Source: Chloroflexota bacterium (lineage in GTDB: Bacteria; Chloroflexota; Anaerolineae; Anaerolineales; Villigracilaceae). From it: 64,000 bases of DNA. Position numbers and translations under genes: made by a program. The stretch lies in NCBI GenBank assembly GCA_013388855.1, contig JACAEM010000010.1, positions 1 to 64,000 on the forward strand, written 5' to 3'. The stretch's first letter is position 1. The number at the start of each line of letters is the position of its first letter. Under the pieces are notes generated by a model, which ran no database searches, was not told the origin of the DNA, and was given only the letters and a program-made list of their open reading frames with translations. Shown here piece after piece: positions 2,918 through 19,526 of the stretch.

Positions 2918-4111
2918 ATGGAAAAGATCAATTCGACTTTCATCAAACCACGGTATGACTCGGGAGGATATGCCGGGATCCCGAACCGCATCATAGAAGC
3001 ATTTGCCTCGAAGAGTTACGATGCTGTCATTTTGTTTCTGGTGGATGGCTTTGGCTGGCGCTTTTATGAGCGTTTTCAGGATGCGCCGTTTATCAAACGG
3101 ATCGCCAAACATGGCACAATCAAAAAACTGACATCCCAATTTCCATCCACGACCGCCGCGCATGTGACGACGATCCATACCGGGCTGCCCGTCGGTGAGA
3201 GCGGCGTGTACGAGTGGTACTACTATGAGCCGCAGGTGGATGCCGTCATCGCGCCGCTGCTGTTCTCCCATGCTGGCACGATGGAGCGCGACTCGCTTAA
3301 GTCCACAAAGATCGAGCCGTCAGCGTTGTATCCGCGTGGTGTTTTTTATCCCGAATTGAAAAGGATGGGCGTGGAGTCGTATGTGTTTGGCATCCGCGAT
3401 TACACTCCTTCTACGTATTCGAAGATCGTCATGGCAGGGGCAGAGCAGGTCGCATTCAAAACGTTGTCAGAGGCACTGGTCAATGTGGGATTATTGCTTG
3501 AAAAGCAGGACCAACCCACCTACCTGCATCTCTATTTTGACAGGATCGATGCACTCGGACACGAGTACGGTCCCTCCGCGCCGCAGACAGAAGCCGAGAT
3601 TGAGACTTTCCTGCTTATGATGGAGCATTACTTCGAGCGCACCTTCAAAGCAAAGAAACGAATCCTTTTCCTGATGACCGCCGACCACGGACAAGCGGAA
3701 GTGGATCCGAAGACAACGATCTACCTGAACCGGGATGTGCGTTTTGCCGGTGTCGAACGATTTCTCAAAACCAACAGTCAGGAAAGGCTGATCGTCCCTG
3801 CGGGTTCGGCGCGGGATATGTTCCTCCACATCAGGGAGGAAATGCTCAGTGAAGCACAGGCGTTCCTTGCGCCGCGTCTCGAAGGGAAAGCCGATGTGGT
3901 GAAAACGGAAACTCTCAGCAAAGAGGGTTATTTCGGTGCGGAGGTTTCAACACGATTTCGGGAACGTGTGGGCAATCTGGTCATCCTGCCGTATCGCTAC
4001 GAGTCCGTGTGGTGGTACGAGAAGGACAAGTTCGAGATGAAGTTCTACGGTCACCATGGCGGGTTGACGCCGCAGGAGATGGAGACGGTTCTATACTCAC
4101 TTGAGGTTTGA
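2918..4111 (+). CDS. Alkaline-phosphatase-superfamily phosphodiesterase/nucleotide pyrophosphatase-like protein
   Basis: The 397-residue protein has the metal-binding and nucleophile motifs of the type I phosphodiesterase family: Asp in LVDGFGW, the nucleophile Thr region STTAAHVTTIHTG, FDRIDALGHEYGP, TADHGQ and a final GHHGGLTP. Such enzymes hydrolyse phosphodiesters or pyrophosphates with two zinc ions. The open frame extends upstream, but ATG 2918 is chosen because homologous sequence begins there and TATAAT lies six bases before it. No signal peptide is evident, which is unusual for a family often exported. The natural substrate is unknown. Confidence 0.85.
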   Translation: MEKINSTFIKPRYDSGGYAGIPNRIIEAFASKSYDAVILFLVDGFGWRFYERFQDAPFIKRIAKHGTIKKLTSQFPSTTAAHVTTIHTGLPVGESGVYEWYYYEPQVDAVIAPLLFSHAGTMERDSLKSTKIEPSALYPRGVFYPELKRMGVESYVFGIRDYTPSTYSKIVMAGAEQVAFKTLSEALVNVGLLLEKQDQPTYLHLYFDRIDALGHEYGPSAPQTEAEIETFLLMMEHYFERTFKAKKRILFLMTADHGQAEVDPKTTIYLNRDVRFAGVERFLKTNSQERLIVPAGSARDMFLHIREEMLSEAQAFLAPRLEGKADVVKTETLSKEGYFGAEVSTRFRERVGNLVILPYRYESVWWYEKDKFEMKFYGHHGGLTPQEMETVLYSLEV

Positions 4112-4125
4112 TTCCGTTATCAGGA

Positions 4126-4161
4126 ATCAAAAGAGCGACCCAATCGGATCGCTCTTTTGAT
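4126..4161. terminator. Bidirectional intrinsic terminator
   Basis: ATCAAAAGAGCGA (4126-4138) pairs perfectly with TCGCTCTTTTGAT (4149-4161). The A/T-rich outer arms provide a U-run on either strand. It lies between two convergent genes, and its right arm touches the stop codon of the NBR1-like gene. Confidence 0.85.
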
Positions 4162-5114
4162 TAATCTTCACGACTGTGAGGATTGGGACTCCAATCCGTG
4201 ATATTGATGCCTGTGGTGGTTTGCCCGCCTTTGACCACGAATTTCTTCATGATCAGGCTGTCGTTGACATAGGCACCCTGCAGGTTGTAGTTGGGGACCG
4301 ACGCATAAGCATAGTAGGTTCCAGTGGGAAGTAGGACGCTGTAGCTCGGGTTCCTCTCTGGGATGGAGAACTGGATGATTTCTCCCGTAACTGCGTTCTC
4401 GAAGTACAGGGTCAGCGGCGGGTTGAATTCGCTCGGGTACGAGAAGTTGCCCATGACCGTTCCATGCGGCAGGTCTTCCATACGGATGTCCACAAAGAAT
4501 GCCTTGTTGGCATTGTCGCCATACCCGAACATCACTCCGGAAGGATTCCGCAACATCCAGTAGCCTGTGTAGTGGCCGCGCTTCGCCGGGGCTGTCAATG
4601 TGACCGACACATCCACGGTCTGACCGGGGGAAACGTTGCCGGGCAAACGAACCGCTGTGGTGCCGCCCATCGGATCACCGCTGACGAAAACCAGCATGTA
4701 ATCGGGAGTCCATGTGCAGGTGCCGCGGTTCTTCAAACGCCAGGTTTTGGTAAAGGTCTCGCCTGCTGTGAGTTTGGTCCCATCGGGGATGGACACATCC
4801 TTGATGAAGGAAACCCAATCGCAATAGGAAACAGCCGTCGCCGTGGGGAGAGGCGTATTGGTCGGCAGGGGAGTATTTGTCGGCGGGATCGAGGTCGCCG
4901 TTGCGGGAGGAAGAGGCGTCTGCGTGGGCGCGTTCTGGGTCATCGCGACGATGGTCTGTGTGACCATGGCTTGAACGGTCGCAACGTTATCCACCGATAC
5001 AGGCTGCTCATACTGAAGGAGCGGCGCGGCGAATACGGCGATAGGCAGACAAGCCACCATCACAAGGGCGATCAAGCCGAATACTATAAGAATTGAATTG
5101 GTTGTAATTTTCAT
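4161..5114 (-). CDS. Secreted NBR1-Ig-like domain protein with Pro/Thr linker
   Basis: The 317-residue protein has a signal sequence or membrane anchor (ILIVFGLIALVMVACLPIAV), a low-complexity Pro/Thr linker at about residues 60-92, and then an NBR1 Ig-like domain (about 93-205). Diagnostic segments are DGTKLTAGETFTKTWRLKNR and GTCTWTPDYMLVFVSGD. The last ~110 residues form a separate beta-rich region. Members of this group are cell-surface proteins common in Anaerolineae, of unproven role. A strong GGAGGTG precedes the ATG. The leader upstream may be structured. Confidence 0.85.
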   Translation of the reverse strand: MKITTNSILIVFGLIALVMVACLPIAVFAAPLLQYEQPVSVDNVATVQAMVTQTIVAMTQNAPTQTPLPPATATSIPPTNTPLPTNTPLPTATAVSYCDWVSFIKDVSIPDGTKLTAGETFTKTWRLKNRGTCTWTPDYMLVFVSGDPMGGTTAVRLPGNVSPGQTVDVSVTLTAPAKRGHYTGYWMLRNPSGVMFGYGDNANKAFFVDIRMEDLPHGTVMGNFSYPSEFNPPLTLYFENAVTGEIIQFSIPERNPSYSVLLPTGTYYAYASVPNYNLQGAYVNDSLIMKKFVVKGGQTTTGINITDWSPNPHSRED

Positions 5115-5149
5115 CGTGCACCTCCAGTATCGTGCTGAAAATGGACGAT

Positions 5150-5210
5150 GCTCCCCTCAGAAAGGTTCCCGGCTTCAAGTCTCCCACTTGGGTACTACCT
5201 GTCAGAAGAA
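5150..5210 (-). other. Candidate structured 5' leader of the NBR1-Ig gene
   Basis: Nested complementarity is visible: an outer AGGT/ACCT pair (5163-5166 with 5197-5200) enclosing CAAGT/ACTTG (5176-5180 with 5186-5190) around a CTCCC/GGGAG loop. It lies 40-100 bases upstream of the start codon on the - strand. I could not match it to a riboswitch class I know. It may be ordinary leader sequence. Confidence 0.3.
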
Positions 5211-5246
5211 TAAAAAGACTTCCGAAGAGTTGCATCTTCGGAAGTC
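5211..5246 (-). terminator. Intrinsic terminator of the cytochrome b561 gene
   Basis: GACTTCCGAAGA (5217-5228) pairs perfectly with TCTTCGGAAGTC (5235-5246). On the - strand the hairpin is followed by a run of five U residues. It lies just after the stop codon of the cytochrome b561 gene. Confidence 0.85.
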
Positions 5247-5257
5247 CATGCGAACAG

Positions 5258-5797
5258 TTATTCCTTTCCAAACCACATTCTGGAGAGCAGGTTGTCCCTG
5301 CGGATGAACTGGTGGTACATTGCCGCGCCGATGTGCAGGACAACCAACGCCAGCAGGAGCGAGGACGACAAACCATGTCCCATACGCGGCAGGTACTGGA
5401 AGAAATCCTGCGGGTAGGGCGCCTGTCCGCCAAAGATGGCTGGCAGGTTCGCCATCTGAAAAAGACCAAACCCGCTCACTGCCATGCCGATGAGCAGTAG
5501 GTAAAGCAGGAAGTGAACAACCTTTGACAGGAAATTCAAAAAAGCATTCCCGGCATCTGCGGGGGCGGGGCGGTTTGTTGTAAAACGAAGCACCAGCCGG
5601 ATCGCCAGCAAAACCCCAATCGCCATGCCGGTATAAGCATGGATTTGCAACATAAACACCTTTTGCGGGTCATCGGGTGAAACGCCGGGCATTACAAACT
5701 TCCCAATACCAAGCATCATCAGTATGAGAAGAGCCATCAGCCAGTGCAAAATCACATGAACAGGATGATAACGGGCGGGAGCGGATTCCTTCGACAT
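5258..5797 (-). CDS. Cytochrome b561-family diheme membrane protein
   Basis: From ATG 5797, preceded by AAAGGAA, the protein has 179 residues with four predicted membrane helices. Heme-ligand histidines are visible in HPVHVILHWLMALL, HAYTGMAIG, VVHFLLYLL and LHIGAAMYHQF. This matches the bacterial cytochrome b561 (YodB/CybB) family, which moves electrons between the quinone pool and a partner such as superoxide or a periplasmic carrier. A longer frame upstream lacks a ribosome site and similarity. It is a single gene with its own terminator. Confidence 0.88.
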   Translation of the reverse strand: MSKESAPARYHPVHVILHWLMALLILMMLGIGKFVMPGVSPDDPQKVFMLQIHAYTGMAIGVLLAIRLVLRFTTNRPAPADAGNAFLNFLSKVVHFLLYLLLIGMAVSGFGLFQMANLPAIFGGQAPYPQDFFQYLPRMGHGLSSSLLLALVVLHIGAAMYHQFIRRDNLLSRMWFGKE

Positions 5798-15582: not shown

Positions 15583-15819
15583 ATGTCCGTTATCCGCGCC
15601 TCCGATATTGGAACTTATCTCTATTGTCGCCGCGCTTGGTGGTACAGAAAACAAGGCATCCAGTCCTCGAATCAGACCGAACTTGCTGCCGGCACCCAAC
15701 TCCATGTCCGGCATGGACGGCAGGTCCTCGCCTCCTCGATTACCCGGAATATCGGGCTGCTCCTGCTGATGGTCGCACTGGTGCTTCTCGTGGCGTATTG
15801 CACCTACCGAATTATCTAA
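15583..15819 (+). CDS. Membrane-anchored N-terminal half of a Cas4-like Fe-S nuclease
   Basis: The 78-residue protein begins with the N-terminal module of Cas4/Dna2-type nucleases. TYLYCRRAWWYRKQG contains Cys15, the position of the single N-terminal cluster cysteine, and AAGTQLHVRHG contains His41, the motif I histidine. It then ends in one membrane helix (about 56-76, IGLLLLMVALVLLVAYCTY) with basic residues before it, placing the nuclease module in the cytoplasm. The rest of the nuclease is encoded by the next gene, 26 bases downstream and in another frame. It is likely leaderless. A frameshifted single gene is the alternative, but both pieces have their own start and a plausible membrane helix. 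Confidence 0.7.
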   Translation: MSVIRASDIGTYLYCRRAWWYRKQGIQSSNQTELAAGTQLHVRHGRQVLASSITRNIGLLLLMVALVLLVAYCTYRII

Positions 15820-15845
15820 TTCTCCAATTACCATTTGTCGGTTAC

Positions 15846-16358
15846 ATGCTTTACTTCGCCCTTGCCCTGCTCTTCCTTGCATTCCTCTTCTTCTGGCAGT
15901 CCAACCGTCAGCGGCAGGCCGCGGGACTTCCGGGAGGGCGCATCATCTACACCGACACACGCGGCTGGGGCAAATTGGAGAAACCGCTCTACTATGCCGC
16001 CCTCGACCTGACCGGCAAACCCGATTACCTCATTCAAAAGGATGGGCAGATTGTCCCTGTCGAAGTGAAGTCAGGGAAGGCACCCGATGCGCCCTATGAC
16101 TCACACATTTACCAACTGGCTGCCTATTGTCTGTTGGTGGAGAAAACCTACGCCAAGCGCCCGCCCTACGGTATCATCCACTACGAGGGACGCGATTTTG
16201 CCGTAGATTACACGCCCGCGCTGGAACAGTCCCTGCTGGAATTGCTGACCGAGATGAAGCGAGACGAATTCAAGAAGGAAGTTGCCCGGTCGCATGAGCA
16301 GGCAGCCCGTTGTAAACGATGCGGGTTCCGGGAGGTTTGTGATCAAAAGGTGGCCTAG
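15846..16358 (+). CDS. Membrane-anchored C-terminal half of a Cas4-like PD-(D/E)XK nuclease
   Basis: The 170-residue protein starts with a membrane helix (about 2-17) followed by a basic stop (WQSNRQRQ), so the rest faces the cytoplasm. The nuclease core has GKPDYL (Asp60), VPVEVKSGK (Glu73, Lys75) and the QLAAY motif (Gln90, Tyr94). Cysteines 156, 159 and 165 in RCKRCGFREVCDQ match the three C-terminal cluster cysteines of Cas4. The fourth cysteine and the motif I His are on the preceding small protein, so the two chains probably assemble. No CRISPR array or other cas gene is nearby. Confidence 0.8.
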   Translation: MLYFALALLFLAFLFFWQSNRQRQAAGLPGGRIIYTDTRGWGKLEKPLYYAALDLTGKPDYLIQKDGQIVPVEVKSGKAPDAPYDSHIYQLAAYCLLVEKTYAKRPPYGIIHYEGRDFAVDYTPALEQSLLELLTEMKRDEFKKEVARSHEQAARCKRCGFREVCDQKVA

Positions 16359-16396: not shown

Positions 16397-17260
16397 ATGT
16401 CCGAAGTATTCCTCCCGAAGCGACCGGTTGTGATTGCCTATCCCCGTATGCCTGAGGCGTTTGTGGAAGCCGAGGCGATGTCGATCTACTTAAAAGAGAA
16501 AGGGATTGATGCTCCATTCGGTTCTCTATATGATGAAGAACTGCGAAACCGTGTCAAAAAGCATGAATTCGACCTGCTCATCATGGCAGGTGGAGACGGG
16601 AGCGTCCTGCGGGCGGGACATCTGTGTGCCCCGTTGGGATTACCCATTCTTGGCGTCAACCTGGGCAGGCTGGGATTCCTGATCCAGATCGAACGAAGCG
16701 AATGGCGCGAGTACTTTGACAAATTGCTGAACGGCGAAGCCTGGATCGAGAATCGCATGATGCTTCACGCGGAACATGTCCGTGCCGGAGACTCACTGGG
16801 TGAGTGGAATGCCTTGAACGAGGTTGTAGTTGGGCGCGGACAAACCCTGCGCCCGGTGCGGCTCTCCGCTTCGGTGGATGGGCGTCACCTCACGAGTTAT
16901 GTTGCCGACGGGTTGATTGCCTCTACCGCCACCGGCTCGACCGCCTACGCCCTCGCGGCAGGCGGACCGATCCTGCCGCCCGAACTGCGCAACATCCTGC
17001 TCATGCCGATTGCCCCGCATCTCTCCGTGGATCGAGGCGTTGTCCTAGCGGAAGGTTCGACAGTGAGCATCCTCGTAAGAAGCGAGAACACGGTTCTGAG
17101 CGTCGATGGTCAACCGTCCATCACCTTGATGGACGAGGATCGCGTGGATGTGCGCGCCGCTGATGTGACGACGCAATTCGTCCGCTTTGGCGACCCGGGC
17201 TATTTCTACCGAAACCTGACCGCGCACATGAATGAGAACTCTTTAGGATTGCCGAGATGA
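16397..17260 (+). CDS. nadK: NAD kinase
   Basis: The 287-residue cytoplasmic enzyme phosphorylates NAD to NADP using ATP. The diagnostic GGDG motif is in LLIMAGGDGSVLRAG. The NAD-binding region follows as LGRLGFL, NEVVVGRG, and DGLIASTATGSTAYALAAGGPI. Length is normal for bacterial NadK. The start codon lies six bases after a TATAAT box, implying a leaderless message. Its end overlaps the start of the zinc-finger membrane protein gene by four bases, and recN follows, so the three are likely one transcript. Confidence 0.95.
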   Translation: MSEVFLPKRPVVIAYPRMPEAFVEAEAMSIYLKEKGIDAPFGSLYDEELRNRVKKHEFDLLIMAGGDGSVLRAGHLCAPLGLPILGVNLGRLGFLIQIERSEWREYFDKLLNGEAWIENRMMLHAEHVRAGDSLGEWNALNEVVVGRGQTLRPVRLSASVDGRHLTSYVADGLIASTATGSTAYALAAGGPILPPELRNILLMPIAPHLSVDRGVVLAEGSTVSILVRSENTVLSVDGQPSITLMDEDRVDVRAADVTTQFVRFGDPGYFYRNLTAHMNENSLGLPR

Positions 17261-17784
17261 CCGAACAAACTACTGGAATACTTTACTGCTATAACCACCC
17301 CAACCGCGAAACAGCCCTGCGCTGCAACAACTGCAATCGTCCCATCTGTGCGTCCTGTGCCGTCCGCACACCGACGGGGTATCGCTGCAGGGAGTGTGTG
17401 CGCGAGCGGCAGAAAAGTTTCGACACTTCCGAATGGTATGACTATCTCCTCGGTTTTCTTGTGGCGGCAGTTCTTTCGGGGGCGGCATCCTTCCTGGTCA
17501 CGTTGATCGGCGGCATTGGTTTCTTTGGCTGGTTCCTCATCGCGGCAGGCGCTCCCACGGCGGCGGTACTCATTGCGGAAGGAGTCCGCGCAGTAACGCG
17601 TAAACGCCGGTCGCGCGCGTTGTTCATCACGGTCGCTGTGGCTGTTGTGCTGGGCGCTGTGCCTGTCATTTTGCTCCAGGCGCTCACGTTTCAGCTATTT
17701 GGCATCCTCTTTCAAGTGATCTATCTTGTCATTGCCGTCCCTACTGTGTATGCACGCCTGTCTGGAATCCAGCTTTTTCGATAA
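17257..17784 (+). CDS. B-box-like zinc-finger membrane protein
   Basis: The 175-residue protein begins with a zinc-binding module of the B-box type: CYNHPNRETALRCNNCNRPIC, then CAVRTPTGYRCREC. At least four hydrophobic helices follow (about 63-175). The combination is found in uncharacterised bacterial membrane proteins, and no catalytic residues are evident. It overlaps nadK by four bases and precedes recN by 11, so it may be co-expressed with both, though no functional link is known. Confidence 0.75.
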   Translation: MTEQTTGILYCYNHPNRETALRCNNCNRPICASCAVRTPTGYRCRECVRERQKSFDTSEWYDYLLGFLVAAVLSGAASFLVTLIGGIGFFGWFLIAAGAPTAAVLIAEGVRAVTRKRRSRALFITVAVAVVLGAVPVILLQALTFQLFGILFQVIYLVIAVPTVYARLSGIQLFR

Positions 17785-17795
17785 AGTTTCATGCC

Positions 17796-19526
17796 ATGCT
17801 GACTGAACTCCGTATCCACAACTTTGCGATCATCGACAAGCTCGACCTGCGCTTTGGTCCCGGACTCATCATCCTCACGGGCGAGACCGGCGCGGGCAAA
17901 TCCATCATCCTCGATGCCGTGGTCATGCTCATCGGGGGCAAAGCCGACGCGACCTTCGTCCGCACCGATTCAGACGCCGCGTTCGTCGAAGGGGTGTTTC
18001 AACTCAAAGGTCCAGAAAGAGAGGCGGTGCACGAAGTCCTCAAGCGCGAGGACCTGATGGACGATCCCGATTACGTGGTGCTGATGCGCGAAGTCCGCAA
18101 GGAGGGACGCAGTGTGGCGCGCGTCAACGGGCGGACGGTCAATGTCGGGTTGTTGAAGGAACTGGGTGGAATCTTGGTGGATATCCACGGGCAAGCAGAA
18201 CATCTCTCACTGCTCGATTCTCGCGCCCATTTGGGCCTGCTGGACCGTTATGCAGAAGTGACTCAACCCCTCAGCGATTACCGTCAAACCTACCACACGT
18301 TGTTGAATCTACGACATGAATTGAGCGACCTGCGCAAAGCGCAAGCCGATGCCGACCGCAAGATCGACATGCTCACCTATCAGGCGGAGGAGATCGAGGC
18401 GGCTCGCTTGAAACCCGGCGAAGACGAAGAATTACGCAAGGAACGCGACCGGCTGGCAAATGCCGAGTCGCTGGCGCAGAACGCGCAGGAAGCGCTGGCG
18501 GTGCTGGAGGAAGGTTCGCCCGAGATGCCCGCCGCCAGTGACCTCGTTGGGCAAGCCGCGCAGGCGCTTGCCGCGCTGGCAAAGATCGACTCGGCGCAAA
18601 GCGAACTGGCAAATCAAGCTGAAGTGTTGCTCGAAACGATGTCTGATATCGTGCACAGCCTGCGCGATTATTTGGAAGAGATCGAATTCAATCCGAAGCG
18701 TCTCGATGAAGTGGAAGAGCGGCTAGACCTGATCCACTCGCTCAAACGCAAATATGGCGGAAGCATCCAGTCCGTGCTGGCGTATGGACAGGATGCGCGA
18801 AAGCAACTGGAAACCATTACAGGCGCGGCGGAACGAATCACCGAACTGGAGATGCAGGAAGCGCGCCTGCTGGACAAGCTTGCCAAACAGGGAAGCCTGT
18901 TGAGCGAGAAACGCAAGTCCGCGGCGCTGACGATGAGCAAGGGTATCGAAACCGAACTCGGTGATCTGAAAATGGCCTCTGCGCGCTTCACTGTGGATTT
19001 CCAGACCAAGCCCGACCCAAACGGCGTGCCGTTGCCGGATGGGACACGCATCGCCTTCGACCAGAACGGTTTTGATAAAGTGGAATTCCTCATCGCGCCG
19101 AACCCCGGCGAGGGACTCAAGCCGTTGGTGAAAATCGCCTCCGGCGGTGAGACGTCCCGTTTGATGCTGGGACTCAAGAACGTACTGGCACGCGCCGATG
19201 AAATTCCCTCTCTGATTTTCGATGAAATTGATCAAGGTATCGGCGGGCGTGTGGGAATGATTGTAGGTCAAAAACTCTGGAATCTTTCACGTATGCATCA
19301 GGTCTTTTGCGTGACACACCTGCCCCAACTGGCGGCGTTCGGCGACGAACATTATCAGGTACAAAAACTGATTCAGGGTAACCGCACATTGACCCGCGTC
19401 GAGCGGCTGGACGGCGAACCACGCCTGCTCGAACTCTCGCAGATGCTCGGCGAAGTGGGCGAAGGGACTCTGCGGTCTGCGCATGAGTTGATGCAGGTAG
19501 CGCGGCAGATGATCAAAGGGAAGTGA
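17796..19526 (+). CDS. recN: DNA repair ATPase RecN
   Basis: The 576-residue SMC-like protein has Walker A (TGETGAGKSIILDA) at the N-terminus and a long coiled coil (about 165-385). The C-terminal ABC signature is KIASGGETSRLMLGLK, with Walker B in LIFDEIDQGIGG and the H-loop region in CVTHLPQLAAF. RecN binds DNA ends and assists recombinational repair of double-strand breaks. Length is usual for the family. It is followed by an intrinsic terminator. Confidence 0.96.
   Translation: MLTELRIHNFAIIDKLDLRFGPGLIILTGETGAGKSIILDAVVMLIGGKADATFVRTDSDAAFVEGVFQLKGPEREAVHEVLKREDLMDDPDYVVLMREVRKEGRSVARVNGRTVNVGLLKELGGILVDIHGQAEHLSLLDSRAHLGLLDRYAEVTQPLSDYRQTYHTLLNLRHELSDLRKAQADADRKIDMLTYQAEEIEAARLKPGEDEELRKERDRLANAESLAQNAQEALAVLEEGSPEMPAASDLVGQAAQALAALAKIDSAQSELANQAEVLLETMSDIVHSLRDYLEEIEFNPKRLDEVEERLDLIHSLKRKYGGSIQSVLAYGQDARKQLETITGAAERITELEMQEARLLDKLAKQGSLLSEKRKSAALTMSKGIETELGDLKMASARFTVDFQTKPDPNGVPLPDGTRIAFDQNGFDKVEFLIAPNPGEGLKPLVKIASGGETSRLMLGLKNVLARADEIPSLIFDEIDQGIGGRVGMIVGQKLWNLSRMHQVFCVTHLPQLAAFGDEHYQVQKLIQGNRTLTRVERLDGEPRLLELSQMLGEVGEGTLRSAHELMQVARQMIKGK

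Follow-up and report, generated by a model that had tools for sequence, protein, structure and literature searches.

A cas4-like locus made of two genes

The window, by which we mean the whole 64,000-nucleotide stretch that was analysed, contains two short genes that are read in different frames and are separated by 26 bp (Table 1). In a profile search, the product of the second gene, the C-subunit, scores 74.9 bits against the TIGR00372 cas4 model, for which the curated cut-off is 65, and it also exceeds the gathering scores of PF01930 and PF12705. The product of the first gene, the N-subunit, matches only the first ~47 positions of TIGR00372 and stays under the cut-off. The PADLOC Cas4 models give the same pattern, the two halves matching consecutive parts. 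About 10 positions of TIGR00372 are covered by neither chain. They mark the site of both hydrophobic helices, since each chain carries one such helix at the break between the halves. RecB motifs I (His), II (Asp) and III (Glu-x-Lys), as well as QhXXY, are complete in the pair jointly and in neither chain alone. The same holds for the 1+3 set of four cysteines, with Cys15 in the N-subunit and Cys156, Cys159 and Cys165 in the C-subunit. The initial annotation of this DNA had described the two ORFs, these residues and one helix per chain at the break, and all of them lie where it placed them.

Table 1. Genes, motifs and conserved neighbours of the split cas4-like locus (positions in the window)
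Feature	Position	Strand	Evidence and conservation
N-subunit gene, 78 aa: N-terminal part of the Cas4 fold and C-terminal membrane anchor	15583..15819	+	TIGR00372 positions 2-47, E 5e-6; PADLOC Cas4, E 1e-6
Cys15 of N-subunit, presumed first Fe-S ligand	15625..15627	+	Kept in all N halves covering the position, including Bacillus and Planctomycetota plasmids
His41 of N-subunit, RecB motif I	15703..15705	+	Invariant except in the Ktedonobacteria-like family f76
N-subunit transmembrane helix, residues ~57-73	15751..15801	+	KD(17) >1.6 in all N halves read; corresponds to helix H49-78 in the AlphaFold model
C-subunit gene, 170 aa: N-terminal membrane anchor, nuclease core and Cys tail	15846..16358	+	TIGR00372 positions 58-178, E 7e-21
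C-subunit transmembrane helix, residues ~2-17	15849..15896	+	In 99-100% of C halves (family, class, other Chloroflexota; f76 excluded); ~3 K/R in the next 15 aa
Catalytic core Asp60 (16023), Glu73 (16062), Lys75 (16068)	16023..16070	+	Invariant in family, class and Chloroflexia-like; partly lost in f76
QxxxY motif, Gln90 and Tyr94	16113..16127	+	Invariant in family and class
Cys156, Cys159 and Cys165, presumed remaining three Fe-S ligands	16311..16340	+	In all complete C halves read, three phyla
NAD kinase gene, conserved downstream neighbour	16397..17260	+	PF20143/PF01513; 87/100 family loci
Zinc-finger/membrane protein, conserved neighbour	17257..17784	+	77/100 family loci
RecN-like gene (named from sequence), conserved neighbour	17796..19526	+	91/100 family loci, 4/21 other class loci

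Conservation of the split and spacing of the halves

Two halves lying close together in different frames are what a one-chain Cas4 gene would look like after a frameshift or an assembly error. This explanation can practically be dismissed, since most of the 150 family genomes searched show the same split (C half in 136, N half in 133) and it recurs across the class. Among 298 genomes sampled from the class, without correction for kinship, both halves are present in 196, the C half only in 7 (two of these C matches being weak), the N half only in 2 and neither in 93. A search of relatives for the pair, its split point and its helices had been proposed with the initial annotation, and all three prove to be conserved. 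An uninterrupted homologue devoid of helices, which would have meant a frameshift, is not found among close relatives; the three single-chain homologues that do exist (see below) carry both helices as a hairpin. The family and class names of some of the sampled relatives are our own reading.

The spacing of the halves also argues against a broken gene. At 75 family loci the two genes overlap by 4 or 1 bp in 10 cases, are 0-250 bp apart in 28, 439-780 bp apart in 35 and more than 1 kb apart in 2. In many of the wider-spaced loci an intact gene of ~210 aa, encoding a HEAT-like protein, lies between the halves; another gene takes this place in L012. The intervening HEAT-like gene lies at 841-1473 of L008, with equivalents in L010, L019, L020, L024, L025, L027 and L029, and shows weak similarity to PDS5/condensin-type repeats. 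Ten genomes, most of them having no N half beside their C locus, were searched for a distant one. It was found elsewhere in nine of them; none was found in the tenth (G375). On single contigs the N-C distance amounts to 434 kb (G366, a 4.67-Mb contig), 509 kb (G159, measured round the circle) and 887 kb (G687), while in the remaining genomes with a distant N half the two lie on separate contigs.

Comparison with the window gives pN values of 0.12-0.22 and pS values of 0.63-0.86 for the N half, and 0.09-0.13 and 0.59-0.76, respectively, for the C half. With pN far below pS, both halves are under purifying selection, even if the synonymous sites have almost reached saturation. Asp60, Glu73, Lys75, Gln90 and the three C-terminal cysteines of the C half, as well as Cys15 and His41 of the N half, do not change in any complete sequence read (101 C and 98 N halves from the family, 29 and 23 from the class, 5 and 4 from Chloroflexia-like families). 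The conserved two-gene split and the separation of the halves by up to 434-887 kb rule out a frameshift, and they show that the halves have to act in trans.

Membrane topology

All N halves have a transmembrane helix, and so do 99-100% of the C halves outside f76. About 2-3.5 K/R are found within 15 residues on the soluble side of the helices, and ~0.5 or fewer in the short tail that follows the N-half helix. Because K/R are thus concentrated on the soluble side of both helices, the two soluble parts should be cytoplasmic. The proposal that a single Cas4-like nuclease has been split into two membrane-anchored chains with their soluble parts in the cytoplasm finds support in this K/R distribution, in the homology with Cas4 and in the conservation of the pair. 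No such hydrophobic segment exists in the soluble Cas4 encoded by the same genome (see below). The pair does not follow the pattern of the characterised Cas4 proteins, one soluble polypeptide with all the motifs, being made of two chains with one membrane helix each. It must be noted that the single soluble chain is a description of characterised members and not a stated criterion of the family.

Predicted structure of the joined halves

A sequence search for solved relatives returned Cas4 8d3l alone for the C half and none for the N half. At two loci (L142 and L171) both genes lie in one frame with a single TAG between them, and this natural read-through was modelled with AlphaFold, the TAG being read as Gly. 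The two runs (pLDDT 76, pTM 0.68-0.69) predict an N-terminal helical part, a hairpin of two long helices and then a RecB-like core. The best solved matches of the read-through model in Foldseek are Cas4 8d3q/8d3l (E about 2e-6). The first model aligns with Cas4 7mi4 over 137 residues (Z 13.7, rmsd 5.4), and the second with 7mi5 over 151 residues (Z 14.7, rmsd 3.5), with 7mi4 over 169 (Z 14.6, rmsd 5.7) and with 8d3l over 164 (Z 13.2, rmsd 5.1). These alignments span residues of both halves, and MGME1, AdnAB, EXO5 and Dna2 rank below Cas4 as structural matches.

Modelling of the read-through joins the halves and so favours assembly, and the alignment rows were mostly unpaired. With this proviso, the joined halves are predicted to adopt the Cas4 fold with an inserted helical hairpin. 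The models do not show that the four cysteines converge, since the last ~20 residues, which include three of them, mostly fall below pLDDT 50.

Single-chain forms

Natural fusions of the two halves exist in three genomes of f76 (L115-L117), a family that we read as Ktedonobacteria or Ktedonobacteria-like. A single ORF of 330-379 aa encodes, in this order, the N half, a helix, a short loop, a helix and the C half. Other members of f76 (L105, L106, L107, L113 and L114) have kept two separate genes. In the fused proteins the catalytic Asp is replaced by Thr or Ala and, in two of them, Glu by Asp, while the cysteines are retained. When L105 is considered with the three fused forms, the replacements are Asp to Thr or Ala and Glu to Asp or Thr, together with the loss of the motif-I His; the four cysteines and the helices stay. 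Because some members have lost the catalytic Asp/Glu and the motif-I His, the f76 protein may not cut, and the family is a possible pseudo-nuclease lineage. In the tree, 22 of 49 inner branches are open and the order of events, fused first or split first, is undecided; the fused forms need one or two changes.

The f76 members with changed Asp/Glu and His, yet with intact cysteines and helices, would suit a membrane Fe-S protein that acts as a redox or DNA-charge sensor and has nuclease activity only as a secondary trait or no longer at all. As an account of the pair at large this seems quite improbable. The catalytic residues are invariant almost everywhere outside f76 and, for one Cas4, cysteine mutants lost the cluster yet still cut (PMC4176176).

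Gene neighbourhood

The downstream neighbours listed in Table 1 are conserved within the family. Among 21 loci belonging to other families of the class, 8 have a translin-like gene in the neighbourhood, usually directly upstream of the N half. The copy in L212 matches PF01997 with an E value of 6e-8 and that in L217 scores nothing against this profile, so that the translin-like group is diverse. In L226 and L228 the translin-like gene stays with the N half while the C half is on another contig. Several Anaerolineae families have the gene adjacent or close to the N half: it lies upstream of it in L203, L206, L210, L212, L213 and L217, and it occurs also in L226 (1721-2419) and L228 (1718-2413), overlapping the N half by 4 bp in L212 and by ~17 bp in L226 and L228. 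In L217 a DUF6909 gene (E 1e-222; 4014-5774) is intercalated between the translin-like gene and the N half. A small conserved protein of ~105 aa (PADLEAVYANLALITHSPSEVVIDFAR...) is encoded upstream of the translin-like gene at 2382-2705 of L226 and 2382-2690 of L228. In two f6 genomes the N half lies near an SMC-like gene, named from sequence. No neighbour is conserved across the whole range of loci compared. Much of the neighbourhood concerns DNA processing, and none of it names a pathway.

Relation to CRISPR and to known types of Cas4

The pair might be the prespacer-trimming Cas4 of a CRISPR adaptation module that has been displaced from its cas locus. Indeed, Cas1 is found in 59% of the genomes that have the C-subunit versus 34% of those that do not (Fisher p 6e-5, kinship uncorrected). 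However, Cas1 is absent from 83 of the 203 genomes with the C-subunit (41%), and membrane anchoring misfits a soluble Cas1-Cas2 partner. In the host genome cas1 is confined to contigs C13 and C23 and does not occur on C14, the contig of the window; the initial statement that no cas gene is near holds, therefore, as far as cas1 is concerned. Contig C23 encodes a separate, canonical one-chain Cas4 of 261 aa beside Cas1 in a cas operon. The presence of this protein makes an adaptation role of the pair unlikely and strengthens the earlier view that its role is probably not adaptation; we consider the displaced adaptation Cas4 very improbable, and for the host genome we reject it. The two cas1 loci of the host genome lie at C23:1-6801 and C13:3068-3952, and the former apparently holds a type I-C set that includes the one-chain Cas4.

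In terms of known Cas4 types, the pair does not meet the CAS-Cas4 criterion, a gene adjoining cas1/cas2. It does meet that of solo-Cas4, namely a Cas4 outside cas loci with apparently vertical inheritance, given its presence in the family and class and the nadK-recN synteny in the family. Solo-Cas4 (COG1468/DUF83) has been reported in "many Chloroflexi" (Hudaiberdiev et al. 2017, PMC5704561), and the proteins described there share with the pair the nuclease fold and motifs, the 1+3 cysteines, the lack of cas neighbours and the apparently vertical inheritance. However, all members in that paper have four cysteines, whereas no single chain of the pair does, and its text mentions neither a split nor membrane anchoring of Cas4. 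CAS-Cas4 structures (8d3l of type I-C, 7mi4/7mi5 of Cas4/Cas1, 4r5q of Pcal_0546 and 4ic1 of SSO0001) share the fold that is predicted for the joined halves and include its best structural matches. Unlike the pair, they each consist of one chain (joined to Cas1 in 7mi4/7mi5) and are not known to be membrane proteins, and the CRISPR members among them are tied to Cas1-Cas2. The nuclease domains of MGME1, EXO5, Dna2 and AddAB/AdnAB are structural matches as well (Z about 7-12) and process single-stranded DNA ends, but they are unsplit and unanchored, and several are fused to helicases. Split cox2 (COXIIA/COXIIB; PMC5374615) likewise consists of two complementary polypeptides encoded by separate genes, with a proposed heterodimer; it is an unrelated mitochondrial oxidase subunit and therefore only an evolutionary parallel. 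No account of a split or membrane Cas4, or of Cas4 with translin, was found in the open-access literature, subscription papers and supplements being outside the search. We file the pair as a form of solo-Cas4 that is not described in the literature searched and whose mechanism is unproven.

Proposed mechanism

The homology of the two halves to consecutive parts of Cas4, their conservation and co-occurrence, their separate genes, the helices at the break and the natural single-chain versions are all observed. In our interpretation, which we hold with good though not complete confidence, the two genes encode obligate subunits of one Cas4-like nuclease (RecB family, "iron staple") located at the inner face of the membrane. 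The N chain would provide the first cluster cysteine and the motif-I histidine, and the C chain the three remaining cysteines along with the Asp/Glu/Lys/QxxxY core. In the membrane the two anchors would lie antiparallel, like a helical hairpin inserted into Cas4 after its motif-I helix and before its first core strand. This would bring the soluble parts together at the cytoplasmic face, where they would form a single active site and a single Fe-S site. By analogy with studied Cas4 proteins, which are metal-dependent single-stranded DNA exo- and endonucleases (PMC4176176), the assembled pair would trim DNA ends. That the halves physically assemble, hold an Fe-S cluster and act as a nuclease on single-stranded DNA ends is inferred, there being no direct evidence of binding, cluster or activity. 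As to the type of cluster, a [4Fe-4S] had been assumed at the outset, and one Cas4 with a [2Fe-2S] cluster is known (PMC4176176).

The division of an active site and of metal-cluster ligands between two membrane proteins, with the split kept class-wide as the genes drifted apart, is unusual. We lean, if only slightly, towards a distinct and undescribed class of Cas4-like nucleases that are bound to the membrane and made of two subunits, a class that would be ancient in Chloroflexota and is also present on plasmids of other phyla. Activity would need the halves to meet in the membrane, an arrangement that might make DNA processing at the envelope safer or control where it happens. Solo-Cas4, a family of unknown role, would thereby be placed at the membrane and be given a mechanism open to testing, in which the subunits must assemble before there is any activity. 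Current annotation is misleading in this respect: the large half is named Cas4 or PD-(D/E)XK nuclease even though the first cysteine and the motif-I histidine are missing from it, and the name given to the small half is "hypothetical protein".

Plasmid-borne pairs and possible roles

Outside Chloroflexota, relatives were sought through plasmid records and not in the whole genomes of other phyla. The best matches there are on plasmids of Bacillus subtilis and of Planctomycetota. In Bacillus subtilis the gene of an 81-aa "hypothetical protein" precedes that of a 162-aa "Dna2/Cas4 domain-containing protein", and the two correspond to the split pair. On the Planctomycetota plasmids (Paludisphaera PALBO2 and Singulisphaera pSINAC03) the two genes overlap by 4 bp. 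In both groups the helices are at the same break as in the window. An alignment of ten C halves from three phyla, from which the fused f76 forms were left out, shows Asp60, Glu73, Lys75, Gln90 and the three cysteines to be invariant; the corresponding alignment of ten N halves, again without the fused forms, shows the same for Cys15, Trp19, Gly37 and His41. A phage origin of the pair was also considered and rejected, no relatives having been found in the phage records or viral contigs searched.

As to the role of the pair, we tentatively suggest DNA end processing at the membrane in housekeeping repair, recombination or DNA transfer, and not CRISPR adaptation; it is a possibility rather than a probability. 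Housekeeping repair, recombination or transfer is the best fit to the spread of the pair, while the DNA concerned (breaks, conjugating or transforming strands, or invaders) is undecided. DNA uptake and defence, the roles offered with the initial annotation, remain guesses.

A narrower version places the pair in a membrane DNA-transfer system, where it would process single-stranded DNA that enters or leaves the cell by natural transformation or conjugation. Its membrane placement and cytoplasmic topology are compatible with this. Moreover, the Planctomycetota plasmid pairs lie near MobF relaxase genes, pSINAC03 being typed as conjugative, and the Bacillus pair adjoins an SF2 helicase and a primase-like gene on plasmids that also carry a prepilin peptidase and a Flp-pilus gene. 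However, no transfer gene is present among the conserved chromosomal neighbours. Among 20 of the 35 ComEC-negative class genomes no association of ComEC with the pair is seen: the C-subunit is kept in 13 of these 20, which is about the base rate. We therefore hold a dedicated transfer role to be somewhat unlikely.

The Planctomycetota plasmid copies also adjoin DNA methylase genes, which can be read in terms of defence against phage or plasmid DNA at its site of entry, and in Synechococcus the plasmid RSF1010 is transferred or maintained less well because of a Cas4-like nuclease (PMC10653904). Against this, the pair is near-universal in the family, with conserved housekeeping synteny and apparently vertical spread, unlike a typical defence gene, and the absence of relatives from the phages and viral contigs searched does not favour it either. 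Defence is thus unlikely, and general end processing at the membrane remains the role that we prefer.

For finding out what the pair does, the copy on the Bacillus subtilis plasmid is a tractable starting point. The prepilin peptidase and Flp-pilus genes mentioned above are those of plasmid NRS6116_2 (L242, 13168-18414). Plasmid pPL62-2 of Planctomyces sp. SH-PL62 carries a decayed copy, with a frameshifted C half just downstream of an IS701 transposase gene (L244, 5700-6500).
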